DNA of 64,000 nt from Ignavibacteria bacterium RIFOXYB12_FULL_35_14 (GTDB taxonomy: Bacteria > Bacteroidota > Ignavibacteria > Ignavibacteriales > Ignavibacteriaceae): NCBI GenBank assembly GCA_001803045.1, contig MHAR01000008.1, positions 54,877 to 118,876 of the forward strand, read 5' to 3'. Below, piece after piece: positions 15,823 through 26,258 of this stretch. Positions within the stretch are counted from its first letter, which is position 1. The number at the start of each line of letters is the position of its first letter. The position numbers were made by a program, and so were the translations under genes. The notes under the pieces were generated by a model that was given only the letters and a program-made list of their open reading frames with translations, was not told the origin of the DNA and made no database searches.

Positions 15823-17994
15823 ATGAACTTTAGCAATCCAAAATATAAAAAAATGTTTGACCGGCTTTTGGGAGCATGCCATCAAAATTTTCCTAGCATT
15901 GATGAAAAACTGCTAGCAAAAGGTTTTGAATTTGCTATTGAAGCTCATAAGAATGACCGGCGTGCATCGGGTGATGAATATATTACTCATCCTTTTGAGG
16001 TTGCTTTGATTGTTGCTCAGGAAATACCTCTTGATGACGTGACAGTTGTTAGTGCATTGCTGCATGATACCATTGAAGATACCGAGATCAGTGTTGAATT
16101 GCTGCAGAAAGAGTTTGGGAAAGAAGTAGCAGAAATTGTTGATGGCGTTACAAAGATAAGCGGAATATTCAAGGGGCATGAGATTACTCAGGCAGAAAAT
16201 TTTCGAAAGCTTTTGCTTTCGATGGTTAAAGATGTTCGTGTAATTCTAGTAAAATTTGCTGATAGACTTCACAACATGAGAACATTAGAGCATCTGCACC
16301 CTGAAAAGCAAAGGAGAATTGCCCAGGAGACTTTGGAGATTTATGCTCCCTTCTCACATCGTTTCGGATTGGCTCAATTCAAATGGGAATTGGAAGATCT
16401 CGCATTTAAGTACCTCAACAAAGTTGCTTATGATGAAATCTCTAACAAAATAAGCGCTAAACGAAATGAGAGGGAATCATTCATAAAGAAATTTGCAGAC
16501 CCTATTTCTAAAAAGTTAGATGAGTATAAACTGAAATATGAAATCAGCGGTAGAGCAAAACATCTTTACAGCATTTACCGTAAAATGGTTAGGCGCAACA
16601 AACCATTTGAAGAAATATATGATTTGTTTGCAATCAGGATTATCTTAGATACAAGTGATAAAAATGACTGCTATACTACTTTAGGAATTGTTAATCAGAT
16701 GTATCCTCCCGTTGCGGACAGATTTAAGGACTATGTGTCTATTCCCAAAACAAATAACTATCAATCTATTCATACTACAGTTGTTGGCCCTGATGGAAAA
16801 TTGGTTGAGGTTCAGATCCGAACACGTAATATGCATGAAATTGCCGAGCGCGGTTTTGCCGCTCATTGGAGATATAAAGAAAGTAAAACTACTTCGGATA
16901 AAGATTTGGAGAATTGGGTTAACTGGGTGAGAGATATATTTGAATCTGCCACAAAGGATGAAGAGAAGAAAGATTTAATTGAAAACTTTAAGCTCAACCT
17001 TTACCAGGATGAAATTTATGTTTTCACACCCAAGGGCGATCTGAAACGGCTTCCTATTAATTCAACCCCTGTTGATTTTGCATTTGAAATTCATAGCAAG
17101 GTTGGACATCACTGTATCGGTGCAAAGGTCAACGGTAAAATTGTACCGCTTGATACCCGGCTTCATAGCGGGGATCAATTAGAGATAATCATTTCTAAAA
17201 ATCAGCATCCTAACAAAAACTGGTTAAAGTTTGCAGTAACACACAAAGCCAAAAATGCTATTAGAAAGTATATAAACAAGGAAGAAGAGGAAATAGTTAA
17301 TGCCGGGAAAGAGCTATGGGAAAAGAAATTAAAAAAGCTCAAATTATCTTTTAATATGGAGGACATCATACGATTAGCAGTTAGCTTGAAATTTGAGGGT
17401 ACAAAACATTTCTTTAAATCAATTGCGCAGGGCAAGCTCGATCTTGATGACGTACTTGCAACCACAAAAGAAAAAGAAAAAAAGGAAAAAGTTTCGGTTC
17501 TGGAATTCGATAGCTTTGCATCTTCAGCACGAAATACTGCCGGAGGAATTCTAGTTGACGGTAAGATTGATGGAATTTTATATTCATATGCAAAGTGCTG
17601 CAACCCTATTCCGGGTGATCCTGTAATCGGGTTTGTTACAATTGGTGAAGGAGTAAAAGTCCACCGTAAATCTTGCAATAATCTTTCGATGATTCAGGAA
17701 AAAAATGAATCAAAATTTATTACCGTGCAGTGGCCGGAGAATGAAAGTTCACTTTTTGTTGCCGGTTTGAAAATAGTCGGTAAAGATTCTCCTGGAATTT
17801 TAAATGATATTTCTCATGCAATTGTTTCGTATCAGAACACGAATATCAAATCGGTAAACATCAGCACCGCAGATTCATCTTTTGATGGAAGTGTAACATT
17901 GTATGTTCACAACATCGGTCATCTTGAAAGAATTATTGAAAGATTAAAAAAGATAAAGGGCGTTATTTCTGTTGAAAGATTCGAAAGCTTTTGA
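15823..17994 (+). CDS. spoT: Bifunctional (p)ppGpp synthetase/hydrolase RelA/SpoT
   Basis: This 723-residue stringent-response enzyme makes and degrades the alarmone (p)ppGpp. Domains in order are: HD hydrolase (THPFEVALIVAQ, ALLHDTIEDT, about 30-180), synthetase (YDLFAIRII, DRFKDYVSIPKTNNYQSIHT, EVQIRT, about 240-350), TGS (VFTPKGDLKRLPINSTPVDF, about 405-465), a helical and zinc-finger-like region with a CCNPIPGD motif near 590, and a C-terminal ACT domain. Both the HD motif and the synthetase residues look intact, so it is likely bifunctional, as expected for a single long RSH protein in this group. The downstream ruvX begins within about 20 bases. Confidence 0.95.
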   Translation: MNFSNPKYKKMFDRLLGACHQNFPSIDEKLLAKGFEFAIEAHKNDRRASGDEYITHPFEVALIVAQEIPLDDVTVVSALLHDTIEDTEISVELLQKEFGKEVAEIVDGVTKISGIFKGHEITQAENFRKLLLSMVKDVRVILVKFADRLHNMRTLEHLHPEKQRRIAQETLEIYAPFSHRFGLAQFKWELEDLAFKYLNKVAYDEISNKISAKRNERESFIKKFADPISKKLDEYKLKYEISGRAKHLYSIYRKMVRRNKPFEEIYDLFAIRIILDTSDKNDCYTTLGIVNQMYPPVADRFKDYVSIPKTNNYQSIHTTVVGPDGKLVEVQIRTRNMHEIAERGFAAHWRYKESKTTSDKDLENWVNWVRDIFESATKDEEKKDLIENFKLNLYQDEIYVFTPKGDLKRLPINSTPVDFAFEIHSKVGHHCIGAKVNGKIVPLDTRLHSGDQLEIIISKNQHPNKNWLKFAVTHKAKNAIRKYINKEEEEIVNAGKELWEKKLKKLKLSFNMEDIIRLAVSLKFEGTKHFFKSIAQGKLDLDDVLATTKEKEKKEKVSVLEFDSFASSARNTAGGILVDGKIDGILYSYAKCCNPIPGDPVIGFVTIGEGVKVHRKSCNNLSMIQEKNESKFITVQWPENESSLFVAGLKIVGKDSPGILNDISHAIVSYQNTNIKSVNISTADSSFDGSVTLYVHNIGHLERIIERLKKIKGVISVERFESF

Positions 17995-18014
17995 ATAGAA
18001 TGCTGACCGATACA

Positions 18015-18434
18015 ATGAAAAGAGCGTTAGCTATTGATTATGGTTCTAAAAGAATTGGTGTTGCAATCAGTGATCCTTTTCGTTTGTTTCCCTCTATAAC
18101 TATAACTCTTAAAAATGATAAAAATATATTTTCCGAATTATTGAAAATTATTTCGGAAAAGAATATCGATAAAATTATTCTCGGTTATCCGTATGATGAT
18201 AGTAGGGCAACCACACAGTTAGCAAAAGAAATATTGAAGTTTAAAAACCAGCTCGAGCTAAAGTCAAAATTATCAATTGATCTTTGGGATGAACAGCTAA
18301 CATCAAAAATGGCTGTGTCACGAATTATCAGTTCGGTAACCAAAAAATCTAAAAGACGGAATAAATCGTTAATTGATGCTCAATCGGCTGCAATTATTTT
18401 GGAAGAGTATCTTAAAAGCTTAGAAGATAAATAA
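18015..18434 (+). CDS. ruvX: Holliday junction resolvase-like nuclease RuvX (YqgF)
   Basis: RuvX/YqgF is an RNase H-fold nuclease linked to Holliday-junction resolution and 16S rRNA maturation. It opens with the family signature KRALAIDYGSKRIGVAISD, contains IILGYPYDD, and has DEQLTS and IDAQSAAIILEEYL toward the end, carrying the expected acidic residues. Three starts are possible: TTG at 17991, ATG at 18000 and ATG at 18015. I prefer 18015 because it places the family motif right at the N-terminus, giving 139 residues. It directly follows spoT and precedes the BMC-domain gene by 30 bases. Confidence 0.88.
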   Translation: MKRALAIDYGSKRIGVAISDPFRLFPSITITLKNDKNIFSELLKIISEKNIDKIILGYPYDDSRATTQLAKEILKFKNQLELKSKLSIDLWDEQLTSKMAVSRIISSVTKKSKRRNKSLIDAQSAAIILEEYLKSLEDK

Positions 18435-18464
18435 AATCATAATTCATTTAATATATTTTTTAAC

Positions 18465-19154
18465 ATGGAAACATCACTTGGAATTTTAGAAACAAAGGGA
18501 TTTGCTGCTGCAATTTCTGCGGCGGAAAAAATTTTAGAAGATAATAGTATTGATCTTGTCAAGATCGAGAAAACCGGCGGCGGAATTATTTCACTTTTTT
18601 TCAAAGGCAATAATGAACGATTGAAAACCTCATTTGAGAAAGCTATTCAGCAAGCAAGATTAGTCGGCGAGATTGTGGCTCTTTACATTAATAATAAATA
18701 CAATAAGAAATTAGAAAAATTTTTATTTACAAGCGATAAAGCAGCCGAATTGACTTCAGTGAAGAGAGAGACAGTTCAAGAAAAAATCATTGCAGAAAAA
18801 GCTGAGACGGAAGTTGAAAAAACACAAGTGCAAAAACCAGTCAAAGTTTTGAAGAAACTGTCCGCAGCAGAAAAAAAAATTAAAACTTCTAAGTTTTTAG
18901 GAACAACTTCAACAATTCAACGCTTAAGACGCGAAGCTCTATCGTCTGAAAATTTTGCTAAAGCGAAAGAAGGAGTATCAAAAGATCGAGGAGGAAAAGC
19001 TACATCAGAAATCAATATAAACAAGATTGAGAATTTAAATGTTCACGAGCTTAGAAGGTTGGCTCGAAGCACTAATGACTTCCCGATTCAAGGCAGAGAA
19101 ATCTCTAAATCAAATCGTAAAGAATTAGTGAAATATTTCAAGGACTTGGCATAA
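18465..19154 (+). CDS. Orphan BMC shell-domain protein with SAP/Rho-N-like tail
   Basis: A 229-residue protein in two parts. Residues 4-76 fit a bacterial microcompartment hexamer (BMC-H) domain: LGILETKGFAAAISAAEKIL, a GGG turn at 38-40 where shell proteins have their central pore loop, and QARLVGEIVALYI at the end. Residues 95-180 are a charged Lys/Glu-rich linker. Residues 185-229 resemble a SAP or Rho-N nucleic-acid-binding motif (LNVHELRRLARS, then SKSNRKELVKYFKDL). No other shell protein, encapsulated enzyme or pentameric vertex protein is encoded nearby; the neighbours are ruvX and a YbbR gene. The shell fold is well supported, while a nucleic-acid role for the tail is inferred. Possible roles include a shell component for a locus elsewhere, or a BMC fold reused as a hexameric nucleic-acid-binding scaffold. 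Confidence 0.78.
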   Translation: METSLGILETKGFAAAISAAEKILEDNSIDLVKIEKTGGGIISLFFKGNNERLKTSFEKAIQQARLVGEIVALYINNKYNKKLEKFLFTSDKAAELTSVKRETVQEKIIAEKAETEVEKTQVQKPVKVLKKLSAAEKKIKTSKFLGTTSTIQRLRREALSSENFAKAKEGVSKDRGGKATSEININKIENLNVHELRRLARSTNDFPIQGREISKSNRKELVKYFKDLA

Positions 19155-19234: not shown

Positions 19235-20155
19235 ATGAAAAAGAATCTTTACGTAATATTTCTAAGCATTACATTTTCAGTAATTCTTTGGGTTTCAGTT
19301 TCACTCTCAAATGATTATAGCACAAATCTGCAATTACCAATTAAGTTTATCAATTTGCCCGAGGGATATGTACCGGTTTCACCTTCTTCAGATAAAATCA
19401 ACGTTAAGGTGAGAGGCAAAGGATGGAATCTCCTCACAACTAAGATTACTTCCCAAAATGATTATAATGTTGACGCCGGGAATGAACTTAAGAAAAAACA
19501 AATATTAAACCTCCAATCTTTTGCGGCGGATAACACCTGGTTGACTTCTAAACTCCAAATATTGGAAATTACTCCGGACACGATTTCATTTTCATTTGAA
19601 AAAATTGGTTATAATAAACTGAAGATAGTTCCCCATCTTCAATTGGAGTTTAAAACAGGTTATAGCTTAGTATCCGATGTTATTGTTATGCCTGAATCAA
19701 CCGTTGTATCAGGTCCAATTCAAAAAGTTAGTGCTTTGGTTGATATTCCTACTGAGCTTCTTCATATCAAAGATTTGAGTGACAAAATTGAAAAGATAGT
19801 TGAACTTAAAAATATACCCGGGCTGAATTATGAAGACCAATCAGCCACTGTAATTTTAAATGTTCAGAGAATTGTTGAGAAATCCTTTGATGAAATAAAT
19901 GTTAGAGTTATTGATATTCCTGCTGATAGAGATGTTATCTTACTGCCAAATAAAATAAATATTTTGCTGAGAGGTGGTATTGATGTTCTCGGGAAGCTAG
20001 ATAAAACTAAAATTGCGGCAGTGGTTAATTACCGTGATGTTGTACTCGATACGATTGGTAATGTCACCCCGAGGTTGATCATTCCTGATAATACCAAATT
20101 GGTTTACATCAAACCCGAAAATTTGAAATACGTCATAAAAAAATTCAATAAATAA
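19235..20155 (+). CDS. YbbR-domain membrane-anchored protein
   Basis: A 306-residue protein with an N-terminal membrane anchor (NLYVIFLSITFSVILWVSVS) and repeated beta-rich YbbR-like modules outside the membrane (LPIKFINLPEGYVPVSPSSD near residue 32, LQLEFKTGYSLVSDVIVMP near 135, FDEINVRVIDIPADRDVILL near 220). In other bacteria YbbR/CdaR proteins regulate the diadenylate cyclase CdaA, usually from an adjacent gene. No cyclase gene is visible here: the upstream neighbour is the BMC-domain gene and tmk follows 13 bases later. Its role is therefore inferred only from the domain. Confidence 0.75.
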   Translation: MKKNLYVIFLSITFSVILWVSVSLSNDYSTNLQLPIKFINLPEGYVPVSPSSDKINVKVRGKGWNLLTTKITSQNDYNVDAGNELKKKQILNLQSFAADNTWLTSKLQILEITPDTISFSFEKIGYNKLKIVPHLQLEFKTGYSLVSDVIVMPESTVVSGPIQKVSALVDIPTELLHIKDLSDKIEKIVELKNIPGLNYEDQSATVILNVQRIVEKSFDEINVRVIDIPADRDVILLPNKINILLRGGIDVLGKLDKTKIAAVVNYRDVVLDTIGNVTPRLIIPDNTKLVYIKPENLKYVIKKFNK

Positions 20156-20168
20156 AAAGTGAAAATTA

Positions 20169-20783
20169 ATGTTCATTACTTTTGAGGGAATAGATTTTTG
20201 CGGGAAATCAACCCAAGTTGAACTTCTGAGAAAATATTTAACAGATAGGAAGAAGATAGTAGAAATTATACGTGAGCCCGGCGGAACAACAATATCTGAA
20301 ATGGTTCGCTCTGTTTTACTGGATAAGGTTCACGAAAATATGTGCAGCGAAACCGAAATATTTCTCTTCTCTGCAAGCAGAGCGCAGTTGGTTAGAGAAA
20401 AAATTCGGCCATATCTAATGAAAGGATATTATGTAATTTCTGATCGGTTTCATGATTCATCTACGGCTTATCAAGGTTTTGGAAGAGGACTTTCTGTTGA
20501 TGCCATAATCAACATTCATAACTTAGCAATTGGTGAAACGATTCCGGACATAACTTTTTTTATCGATATTCCGGTTGGAGAAGCCGAAAATAGAAAGCGG
20601 CAAAAGCTGCATCATGAATTAGACAGAATCGAGGTATCTGAGAGAGATTTTTTTGAAAAAGTCAGGAATGGTTATTTATATCTTTCAAAAGATAAACGGT
20701 TTAGAAAAATAGATGGTATGCAATCAATCGAAGCAATTCACAACCATATTATTAGAGAAATTGAATTATTAGAAAAAAGGTAA
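20169..20783 (+). CDS. tmk: Thymidylate kinase
   Basis: Tmk phosphorylates dTMP to dTDP for DNA synthesis. The 204-residue protein has the P-loop FEGIDFCGKSTQ at the N-terminus, the substrate-binding REPGGTTISE near residue 37, and SDRFHDSSTAYQGFGRGL near 94. The P-loop has Phe-Cys where many homologues have Gly-Ala or Gly-Ser, which is tolerated within the GxxxxGKST consensus. It lies 13 bases after the YbbR gene and 5 bases before the processing protease, so these genes are probably one transcript. Confidence 0.95.
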   Translation: MFITFEGIDFCGKSTQVELLRKYLTDRKKIVEIIREPGGTTISEMVRSVLLDKVHENMCSETEIFLFSASRAQLVREKIRPYLMKGYYVISDRFHDSSTAYQGFGRGLSVDAIINIHNLAIGETIPDITFFIDIPVGEAENRKRQKLHHELDRIEVSERDFFEKVRNGYLYLSKDKRFRKIDGMQSIEAIHNHIIREIELLEKR

Positions 20784-23996: not shown

Positions 23997-25295
23997 ATGA
24001 ATAAAAACTATCAACCCAACACCCGACTCTTAGGCGTCTTACCAAGTGATGATGTACTCCAGCAGTGCATACATTGCGGGATGTGCCTTGCTGTTTGCCC
24101 AACTTACGACATGACTAAGAATGAAAGATCATCACCGAGAGGAAGAATAAAGATGATAAAATCGGTGGCTCGTGGTGAAATGGAGATAACAAACTTATTT
24201 GCTGATGAGATGAACTTTTGTTTGGATTGCCAAGCGTGCGAGACTGCCTGCCCAGCGGGAGTAAAATATGGTTCAATGGTTGAAGCCGCAAGAGTCGAAG
24301 TTAATAACACAGGCTACAGATCTTCTCTTTACAGATTAATTAAAAAACTTTCTCTGAAAGTAATTGTCGGATCAAAATTTAACCTGAAATTCGTTTCAAG
24401 ATTACTCCGAATTTATCAGAATTCATTTATCAGAAAACTACTTCATAAATCTGGAGTGATGAAAATTATATCTGCTGATCTTGAAGAAATTGATAAACTT
24501 TCTCCCACAGTTTCAAAGCAATTTAGCGATGATATTATTCCAGAAATAACTATGGCAAAAGGAGAAGTAAAATACAAAACCGCCTTTCTCTCCGGCTGCT
24601 TGATGAATGTAATGTTTGCAGAGATAAATAAAGATACCGTAGACGTTCTTCAATCTTGCAGTTGTGAGGTGTTTACTCCCAAGGATCAAATATGCTGCGG
24701 TTCACTTCAGGCTCACAACGGAGATTTTGATACAACAAAAAAATTGGCCAAACACACGATTGATGTGTTTTCCAATTACCAGTTTGATTTCATGATTTCA
24801 AACTCTGCAGGCTGCGGTGCTTTTATGAAAGAATACGCACATATTCTTAGTGATGATGTTCAGTATGCAGAACGAGCAAAAAATTTTTCGAAGAGAGTGA
24901 AAGATATTTCCGAATTCCTAATCGAAACGAATATTCCTCAAAACATGAAATCATTAGCAGAAAGCATAACCTATCACGATGCATGTCATCTTGCACACAC
25001 TCAAAAAATAACAGAGCAGCCGCGAAATATTCTCAAAGCAATTCCTGGTACAAAGTACACTGAATTGGAAGAAGCATCCTGGTGCTGCGGTAGTGCGGGA
25101 ATTTATAACATTGTTCATTACAAAGAGTCGATGGTGATCCTTGAACGTAAAATAGAGAATATCAGAAAGACAAATGCTAAAATCGTACTTACCGGAAATC
25201 CTGGATGTTTAGCGCAACTTTGTTACGGTGCAAAAAAGTTTAATGTGAATGTTGAAGTAATGCATCCAGTGAGTTTTATTCGGCGTGCACTTTAG
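23997..25295 (+). CDS. glcF: Fe-S oxidoreductase, GlcF-like
   Basis: A 432-residue iron-sulfur partner of GlcD. Two ferredoxin-type 4Fe-4S motifs lie at the N-terminus (CIHCGMCLAVCPTYD near residue 22 and CLDCQACETACPAG near 75). Two CCG cysteine-rich domains follow: GCLMNVMF ... QICCGSLQAHNG ... NSAGCGAF, and YHDACHLAH ... ASWCCGSAGIYN ... TGNPGCLAQL. These motifs typify subunits that pass electrons from a flavoprotein towards quinone. A diverged partial copy of its last 95 codons lies downstream at 25957-26258, beyond a hicBA module. Confidence 0.9.
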   Translation: MNKNYQPNTRLLGVLPSDDVLQQCIHCGMCLAVCPTYDMTKNERSSPRGRIKMIKSVARGEMEITNLFADEMNFCLDCQACETACPAGVKYGSMVEAARVEVNNTGYRSSLYRLIKKLSLKVIVGSKFNLKFVSRLLRIYQNSFIRKLLHKSGVMKIISADLEEIDKLSPTVSKQFSDDIIPEITMAKGEVKYKTAFLSGCLMNVMFAEINKDTVDVLQSCSCEVFTPKDQICCGSLQAHNGDFDTTKKLAKHTIDVFSNYQFDFMISNSAGCGAFMKEYAHILSDDVQYAERAKNFSKRVKDISEFLIETNIPQNMKSLAESITYHDACHLAHTQKITEQPRNILKAIPGTKYTELEEASWCCGSAGIYNIVHYKESMVILERKIENIRKTNAKIVLTGNPGCLAQLCYGAKKFNVNVEVMHPVSFIRRAL

Positions 25296-25880: not shown

Positions 25881-25918
25881 TATAATTTTGTTAATACTAT
25901 AGAAAAGATTTCCGTTAT

Positions 25919-25946
25919 GGGCTGTCATGAACCATTTAATGACGGC
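25919..25946. repeat. 28-bp palindromic repeat, copy b
   Basis: GGGCTGTCATGAACC continuing into ATTTAATGACGGC, a slightly degraded copy of the palindromes at 25309 and 26299. It lies between the broken hicA and the glcF fragment, so copies a and b bracket hicBA. The ATG at 25917 that could open the glcF fragment overlaps its left edge. Confidence 0.75.
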
Positions 25947-25956
25947 GATCATGGCT

Positions 25957-26258
25957 TCCAGACAATAACAGAGCAGCCGAGAAAAATTCTTATATCCATT
26001 CCCGGGACAAATTACACTGAATTAGAAGAAGCATCATGGTGCTGTGGAAGTGCGGGAATTTATAACATTGTTCATTATGAAGAATCTATGGTAATTCTTG
26101 AGAGAAAAATGGCGAAAATTAGAAAGGCAAATGCAAAAGTTGTTTTAACAGGAAATCCCGGCTGCTTAACCCAACTCCGCTATGGAGCGAAGAAATTTAA
26201 TGTTGAAGTAGAAGTAATGCATCCGATAAGTCTTATAAAAAAGTCGTTGGGTTTATAA
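25957..26258 (+). pseudogene. Diverged 3' fragment of a glcF paralogue
   Basis: From ITEQPRKILISIPG to the C-terminus this matches residues about 338-432 of the intact GlcF upstream, including ASWCCGSAGIYNIVHY and TGNPGCLTQLRYGAKKFNV. It holds only the last part of the second CCG domain and lacks all ferredoxin motifs, so it cannot replace GlcF. The frame is still open (an ATG inside palindrome b at 25917 would give 113 residues). DNA differences from glcF are frequent and mostly at third codon positions. This points to a remnant of a diverged allele or paralogue that was under selection, rather than a fresh tandem duplication. Confidence 0.85.

Follow-up and report, generated by a model that had tools for sequence, protein, structure and literature searches.

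The window, the whole stretch of 64,000 nucleotides analysed here, carries on its plus strand an open reading frame (18465..19154) whose translation is a 229-residue tailed BMC-H protein: a microcompartment shell domain followed by a linker and a conserved C-terminal tail. Its conserved neighbours lie on the same strand, with ruvX (17991..18434) upstream and a YbbR-like gene (19235..20155) and tmk (20169..20783) downstream. Pfam confirms two of the three neighbours named in the initial annotation, the RuvX (PF03652, E 3e-32) and thymidylate kinase (PF02223, E 3e-44) products. The YbbR label finds no Pfam match in the gene at 19235-20155 and is a putative name resting on synteny. Elsewhere in the window, a 113-aa ORF (25917-26258) seems to duplicate part of the C-terminal region of a glcF-like gene (23997-25295), with which it has an ITEQPR...CCGSAGIYNIVHY stretch in common.

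The BMC-H shell domain proposed for residues 4-76 (18474..18692) is borne out. Against PF00936, residues 4-73 score 40.7 bits (E 2.4e-10; cut-off 24.5), and in a PDB sequence search solved BMC-H proteins align with residues ~3-87. The AlphaFold2 monomer model, built on an alignment of 44 homologues, has the BMC fold with a pLDDT of 95-98, and Foldseek places this part of the protein at a TM-score of up to 0.91 to PduA. The LGILETKG opening and the pore-loop glycines G38-G40 (18576..18584), both pointed out initially, are found in the translation.

The surface through which hexamers tile is altered. According to the title of PDB entry 4p2s, Lys26, Asn29 and Arg79 of PduA are essential for shell assembly; in our alignment the corresponding positions of the orphan protein are E, S and K. 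In residues 25-28 (18537..18548), E25 and S28 stand in place of the hexamer-tiling Lys26 and Asn29 (PduA numbering), and residues 78-80 (18696..18704) read K-Y-N in place of the relatives' edge motif R-P-H/D.

A charged linker follows, as initially described, at ~residues 89-184 (18729..19016). It evolves fast, is modelled with a pLDDT of ~50 and has 26% identity to the same-genus homologue. Within it lies a short conserved helix, TIQRLRREALS (residues 150-160, 18912..18944), predicted by AlphaFold2 with a block pLDDT of 84, whose motif recurs in the family alignment. The conserved C-terminal helical domain occupies residues 185-229 (19017..19151), with the consensus LNVHxLRxLARxxxxFPIKGREISKANRxxLLxYF across the alignments and predicted helices at residues 193-202, 211-215 and 218-228. 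Its pLDDT is ~96 within the full-length model and 89.7 when the tail is modelled by itself.

The likeness of this tail to SAP or Rho_N domains is the less secure half of the initial annotation. Neither curated profile matches: Pfam scans of 24 family members return no match of any family to the tail, SAP and Rho_N included, searches of its own genome with PF07498 and PF02037 leave it unmatched, and among PDB sequences the tail profile picks up chance matches only. Rho_N is nonetheless its nearest relative by both profile-profile comparison and fold, below significance. Foldseek ranks E. coli Rho first, at a probability of 0.47 and E 1.5, and more Rho structures are among the matches listed. 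Using hhalign, the tail aligns in register with the Rho_N domain of the same lineage, IENLNVHELRRLAR against SELKSKKIVELNTIAK; the score of 21.1 compares with a mean of 9.6, a standard deviation of 2.5 and a maximum of 21.2 over 100 column shuffles, one of which reaches it. The E2 peripheral-subunit-binding domain, also considered as a relative, compares less well than Rho_N (9 columns in hhalign, probability 8-13%). We regard the tail as a small helical domain that appears weakly like Rho_N/SAP, a lead rather than membership, and nucleic-acid binding by it as a plausible hypothesis.

A second copy of the tail occurs in one genome (G239), in a 398-residue protein (L251 5943-7139) made of a weakly HU-like N-terminus (below the Pfam cut-off), a hydrophobic segment, the tail and then a C-terminal SPOR domain. 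The hydrophobic segment reads as a membrane anchor, and the tail beyond it is presumably periplasmic; given the usual topology, this would argue against a universal nucleic-acid role.

The ruvX-BMC-ybbR order is kept across the taxonomic order, within der-upp-relA-ruvX-[BMC-H]-[tailed BMC-H]-ybbR-tmk-S41 peptidase, and a homologue of the tailed protein or of its BMC domain occurs in 55 of 59 related genomes. Most relatives add a canonical, highly conserved BMC-H of ~93 residues directly upstream of the tailed gene, at the place where the window has the 30-bp gap between ruvX and the BMC gene (18435..18464). Of the 59 genomes, 49 carry BMC-P genes. Their position was examined in two relatives: the interval between deoB and rpoD, next to the ribosomal-protein/rpoA operon, holds two of them, and a third adjoins dprA. 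Going by named records, the family belongs to Ignavibacteria; relatives of it occur in candidate division KSB1 and in Gemmatimonadetes, and related tailed BMC-H proteins in Clostridium.

Such an arrangement is that of the FRAG microcompartments of Ignavibacteriae, whose shell genes are found at up to six places and include a BMC-P triplet (Sutter et al. 2021, PMC8217296). The orphan gene descends from such a compartment, an ancestral FRAG-type one of Ignavibacteria in which it encoded the tailed BMC-H: a homologous shell gene stands at the same conserved, scattered locus. Its housekeeping neighbours do not point to a new function, since the two-gene BMC-H pair found between ruvX and ybbR in relatives makes this setting the normal, ancestral place of a shell gene.

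The partner shell genes have been lost from the window's genome (G000; 4.1 Mb, 100% complete). The statement that no shell partners are encoded nearby extends to the whole genome, which contains a single PF00936 gene over the cut-off and no PF03319 (BMC-P) gene; nor is there a full microcompartment locus anywhere in its 4.1 Mb that would explain the orphan. The partner BMC-H is absent, 30 bp being all that separates ruvX from the tailed gene. At the deoB-rpoD and dprA sites, both assembled and with unchanged neighbours, the BMC-P genes are missing, 391 bp and ~180 bp remain, and neither emptied site holds a recognisable BMC-P remnant. As all three syntenic sites are assembled but empty, the loss is real and an assembly gap is ruled out. 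The same-genus relative G001 likewise has the tailed gene alone and no BMC-P, so that the BMC-P triplet is missing from both genomes.

The deoxyribose-phosphate aldolase gene product DeoC adds to this picture. In intact relatives its N-terminus bears a segment with the pattern IDKVVSQVFIEKALxDFYCxGxTCxGWE. This segment, which looks like an amphipathic helix with a Cys motif after it, is absent from genomes without the FRAG shell (loci L212-L241 in relatives, L242-L247 and L250 in FRAG-less genomes, L248 in the window's own genome and L249 in G023). Among 29 shell-bearing genomes, 28 carry the segment, the exception (G013) having a single BMC-P, and the Cys motif occurs in none of the seven shell-less genomes that have this DeoC type; a worn helix persists in G019. 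This DeoC type is missing from the window's genome and from G023, each of which encodes no more than a distant homologue, and the absence of the cargo-type DeoC is a second, independent sign of compartment loss here. The helix and Cys motif are likely an encapsulation peptide, which would make DeoC a putative FRAG cargo. In KSB1, deoC and a gene for a pyrimidine nucleoside phosphorylase are found close to the BMC-H pair (L084 457-2624 and 5989-6750), as would suit a compartment that breaks down deoxynucleosides, and in Ignavibacteria deoB adjoins BMC-P; these neighbourhoods suggest that the FRAG compartments of this lineage handle deoxyribose phosphate, the ancestral one probably serving its breakdown. 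The same role was put forward for SPU types by Sutter et al. (PMC8217296), who left the function of FRAG unassigned; a DeoC with N-terminal helix and Cys motif offers a testable cargo for it.

The window's genus is not alone in keeping the tailed protein. In a survey of 293 genomes of the class, all of 90% completeness or more, 120 carry the tail, 121 BMC-P and 112 both, leaving eight with the tail and no BMC-P and nine with BMC-P and no tail. Nearly all genomes carrying the tail have it in single copy. On a species tree built from six flanking genes, loss with retention is seen in the window's genus, in G023, in the clade of G012, G020 and genus g27, in G019 and in genus g50; family f12 is a further case beyond this tree. 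The tailed protein has thus been retained after loss in at least six lineages, the window's included. The softer cases are G023 (87% complete), G019 (93% complete) and g27, whose sole BMC-P comes from an apparently unrelated microcompartment locus.

What remains differs between these lineages. A single tailed gene is left in the window's genus, in G023 and in g50 (judged by G230, the contig of G275 being cut), and a diverged BMC-H pair persists in the others. G020, a genome without BMC-P, still has a basal BMC-H upstream of the tailed gene (L034 9447-9731); this copy has diverged strongly, and its pore lacks the usual glycines. Three f12 loci (L165, L166 and L167) each have one tail gene in a genome without BMC-P, adjoining ybbR in L165 and L167. 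A separate microcompartment locus in G027 (L170), which belongs to a genus that lost its FRAG set, encodes a BMC-H pair, a BMC-T, one BMC-P, an EutS-like protein and an EutK-like tailed BMC.

Loss of BMC-P is accompanied by a change in the BMC domain. Scored with profiles made from BMC-P-bearing genomes only (leave-one-out for those genomes), the domain reaches 137-162 bits (median 152) with BMC-P versus 2-102 bits (median 41) without; the Mann-Whitney p of 5e-6 is indicative only, the sequences being related. The tail scores 59-98 bits (median 90) with BMC-P versus 62-86 bits (median 78) without. Lys26 is kept in every aligned tailed and basal protein from genomes with the FRAG BMC-P set. At the extreme, the BMC domain of f12 is recognisable by profile-profile comparison alone (P 4e-5 over 84 columns); its tail nonetheless scores 62-72 bits. 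By alignment and profile, then, the tiling residues are lost, while the tail stays nearly invariant.

Selection on the remodelled BMC domain is strongly purifying in the related genus g27. There, without the FRAG BMC-P set, its dN/dS is 0.03-0.04 (0.015/0.534 and 0.041/1.139), and the altered domain is therefore constrained, not drifting. In the window's genus synonymous sites are saturated, so that selection has to be judged from identity: the orphan protein and that of G001 are 60% identical over the BMC domain, 26% over the linker and 70% over the tail. The GGG pore prompted the idea that a tandem-gene deletion joined a basal BMC-H to the tail, which we do not claim: segment-wise profiles favour a tailed parent over the basal BMC-H, in a comparison biased by the tight basal profile, and the BMC-domain tree has long branches and does not resolve the matter.

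Retention in at least five further lineages suggests a job outside any microcompartment. Together with the lost tiling residues and the purifying selection in one related lineage, it supports the new use of the fold that the initial annotation had offered as one of two options. We consider the orphan a repurposed shell protein, not the satellite of a present shell nor, probably, a case of decay. Our proposal, which we hold to be evenly balanced between right and wrong, is that an ancestral FRAG tailed BMC-H was kept and is now a free, non-tiling ring with six partner-binding tails, for which nucleic acid is the likeliest partner. Its origin in a FRAG compartment of Ignavibacteria and the loss of the partner genes from the genus are shown by the comparisons above; its present role is inferred. 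In intact relatives the tail probably attached or positioned the compartment, in the manner proposed for the C-terminal domain of EutK. Once the shell was gone, selection would have preserved the tail together with a non-tiling ring. The free ring, a hexamer by homology, would not assemble into sheets and could display six flexible tails, with a small partner-binding domain at the tip of each that may contact nucleic acid through its Rho_N/SAP-like helices. Nucleic acid specifically as the partner is less probable than this statement as a whole, and the bolder version, in which a shell protein was repeatedly turned into a free ring-shaped nucleic-acid-binding protein with six DNA- or RNA-binding tails, strikes us as rather doubtful.

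The foremost alternative shares the same history and differs in the partner: the tail would be a protein- or envelope-binding adaptor, the BMC ring merely multiplying its binding sites. The near-invariant FPI[KQ]GR[ED]IS loop and the conserved linker helix suggest a specific partner of this kind, in one genome the tail is flanked by a hydrophobic segment on one side and a SPOR domain on the other, and the SAP and Rho_N profiles leave the tail unmatched. Against these points, Rho_N is its nearest structural and profile relative, ahead of the E2 peripheral-subunit-binding domain, and the Arg/Lys positions of the tail are conserved. We judge an adaptor possible, if on the unlikely side. Decay, by which the gene would be a relic merely not lost yet, agrees with the eroded BMC-domain scores and tiling residues where BMC-P is missing and with the almost unrecognisable domain of f12; it is improbable in view of open reading frames left intact across at least six separate losses, the dN/dS measured in g27, the conserved tail and the confident BMC fold.

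The other option of the initial annotation, a satellite shell protein, survives as ancestry, the gene of intact relatives sitting at this same site as a satellite locus of their scattered FRAG microcompartment. That this bacterium still makes a microcompartment for it to serve is very improbable: its complete genome has no BMC-P, no second BMC-H and no shell, the homologous sites are assembled and empty, the tiling residues are lost and the cargo-type DeoC is absent. Hardly credible is that the gene is kept for operon structure alone, as a coupler of transcription or translation from ruvX to ybbR-tmk and not for its protein; its position between conserved genes is fixed, but the tail protein sequence is conserved across very large distances, and the partner BMC-H and BMC-P genes were lost with their neighbours undisturbed.

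Repeated retention of the protein would matter in two ways. BMC proteins are familiar as building blocks of shells, and their retention after loss of the compartment would show that a shell component can be needed without a shell. The retained protein would also hint at the role of the tail in intact microcompartments, whose positioning is well understood in few systems only. A keyword search of the open-access literature returned no description of the tailed protein, its tail or such retention.

Among known systems, PduA and other canonical BMC-H proteins resemble the orphan in their BMC fold; they differ from it in retaining the tiling triad, and the orphan adds a linker and a tail. With FRAG shell proteins (PMC8217296) it has in common the Ignavibacteria host, the scattered shell genes, the three BMC-P of intact relatives and a BMC-H with a C-terminal extension, whereas the genome here has no other shell genes and its BMC domain no tiling residues. 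Like the helix-extended-loop-helix domains of Rho_N and SAP, the tail appears to consist of two helices and an extended loop, aligns in register and has Rho as its best Foldseek match; unlike them, it matches no curated profile, and the similarity is of marginal significance. The closest functional analogue is EutK, a BMC-H whose positively charged C-terminal domain has been proposed to bind nucleotides and without which Eut microcompartments are not distributed normally in Salmonella cells (PMC12487888). The NCBIfam EutK profile matches the orphan weakly and partially (E 0.004). Both proteins combine one BMC domain with a C-terminal domain, that of EutK being thought to bind nucleic acid, but EutK works with a complete shell, and the tail of the orphan belongs to a different sequence family.
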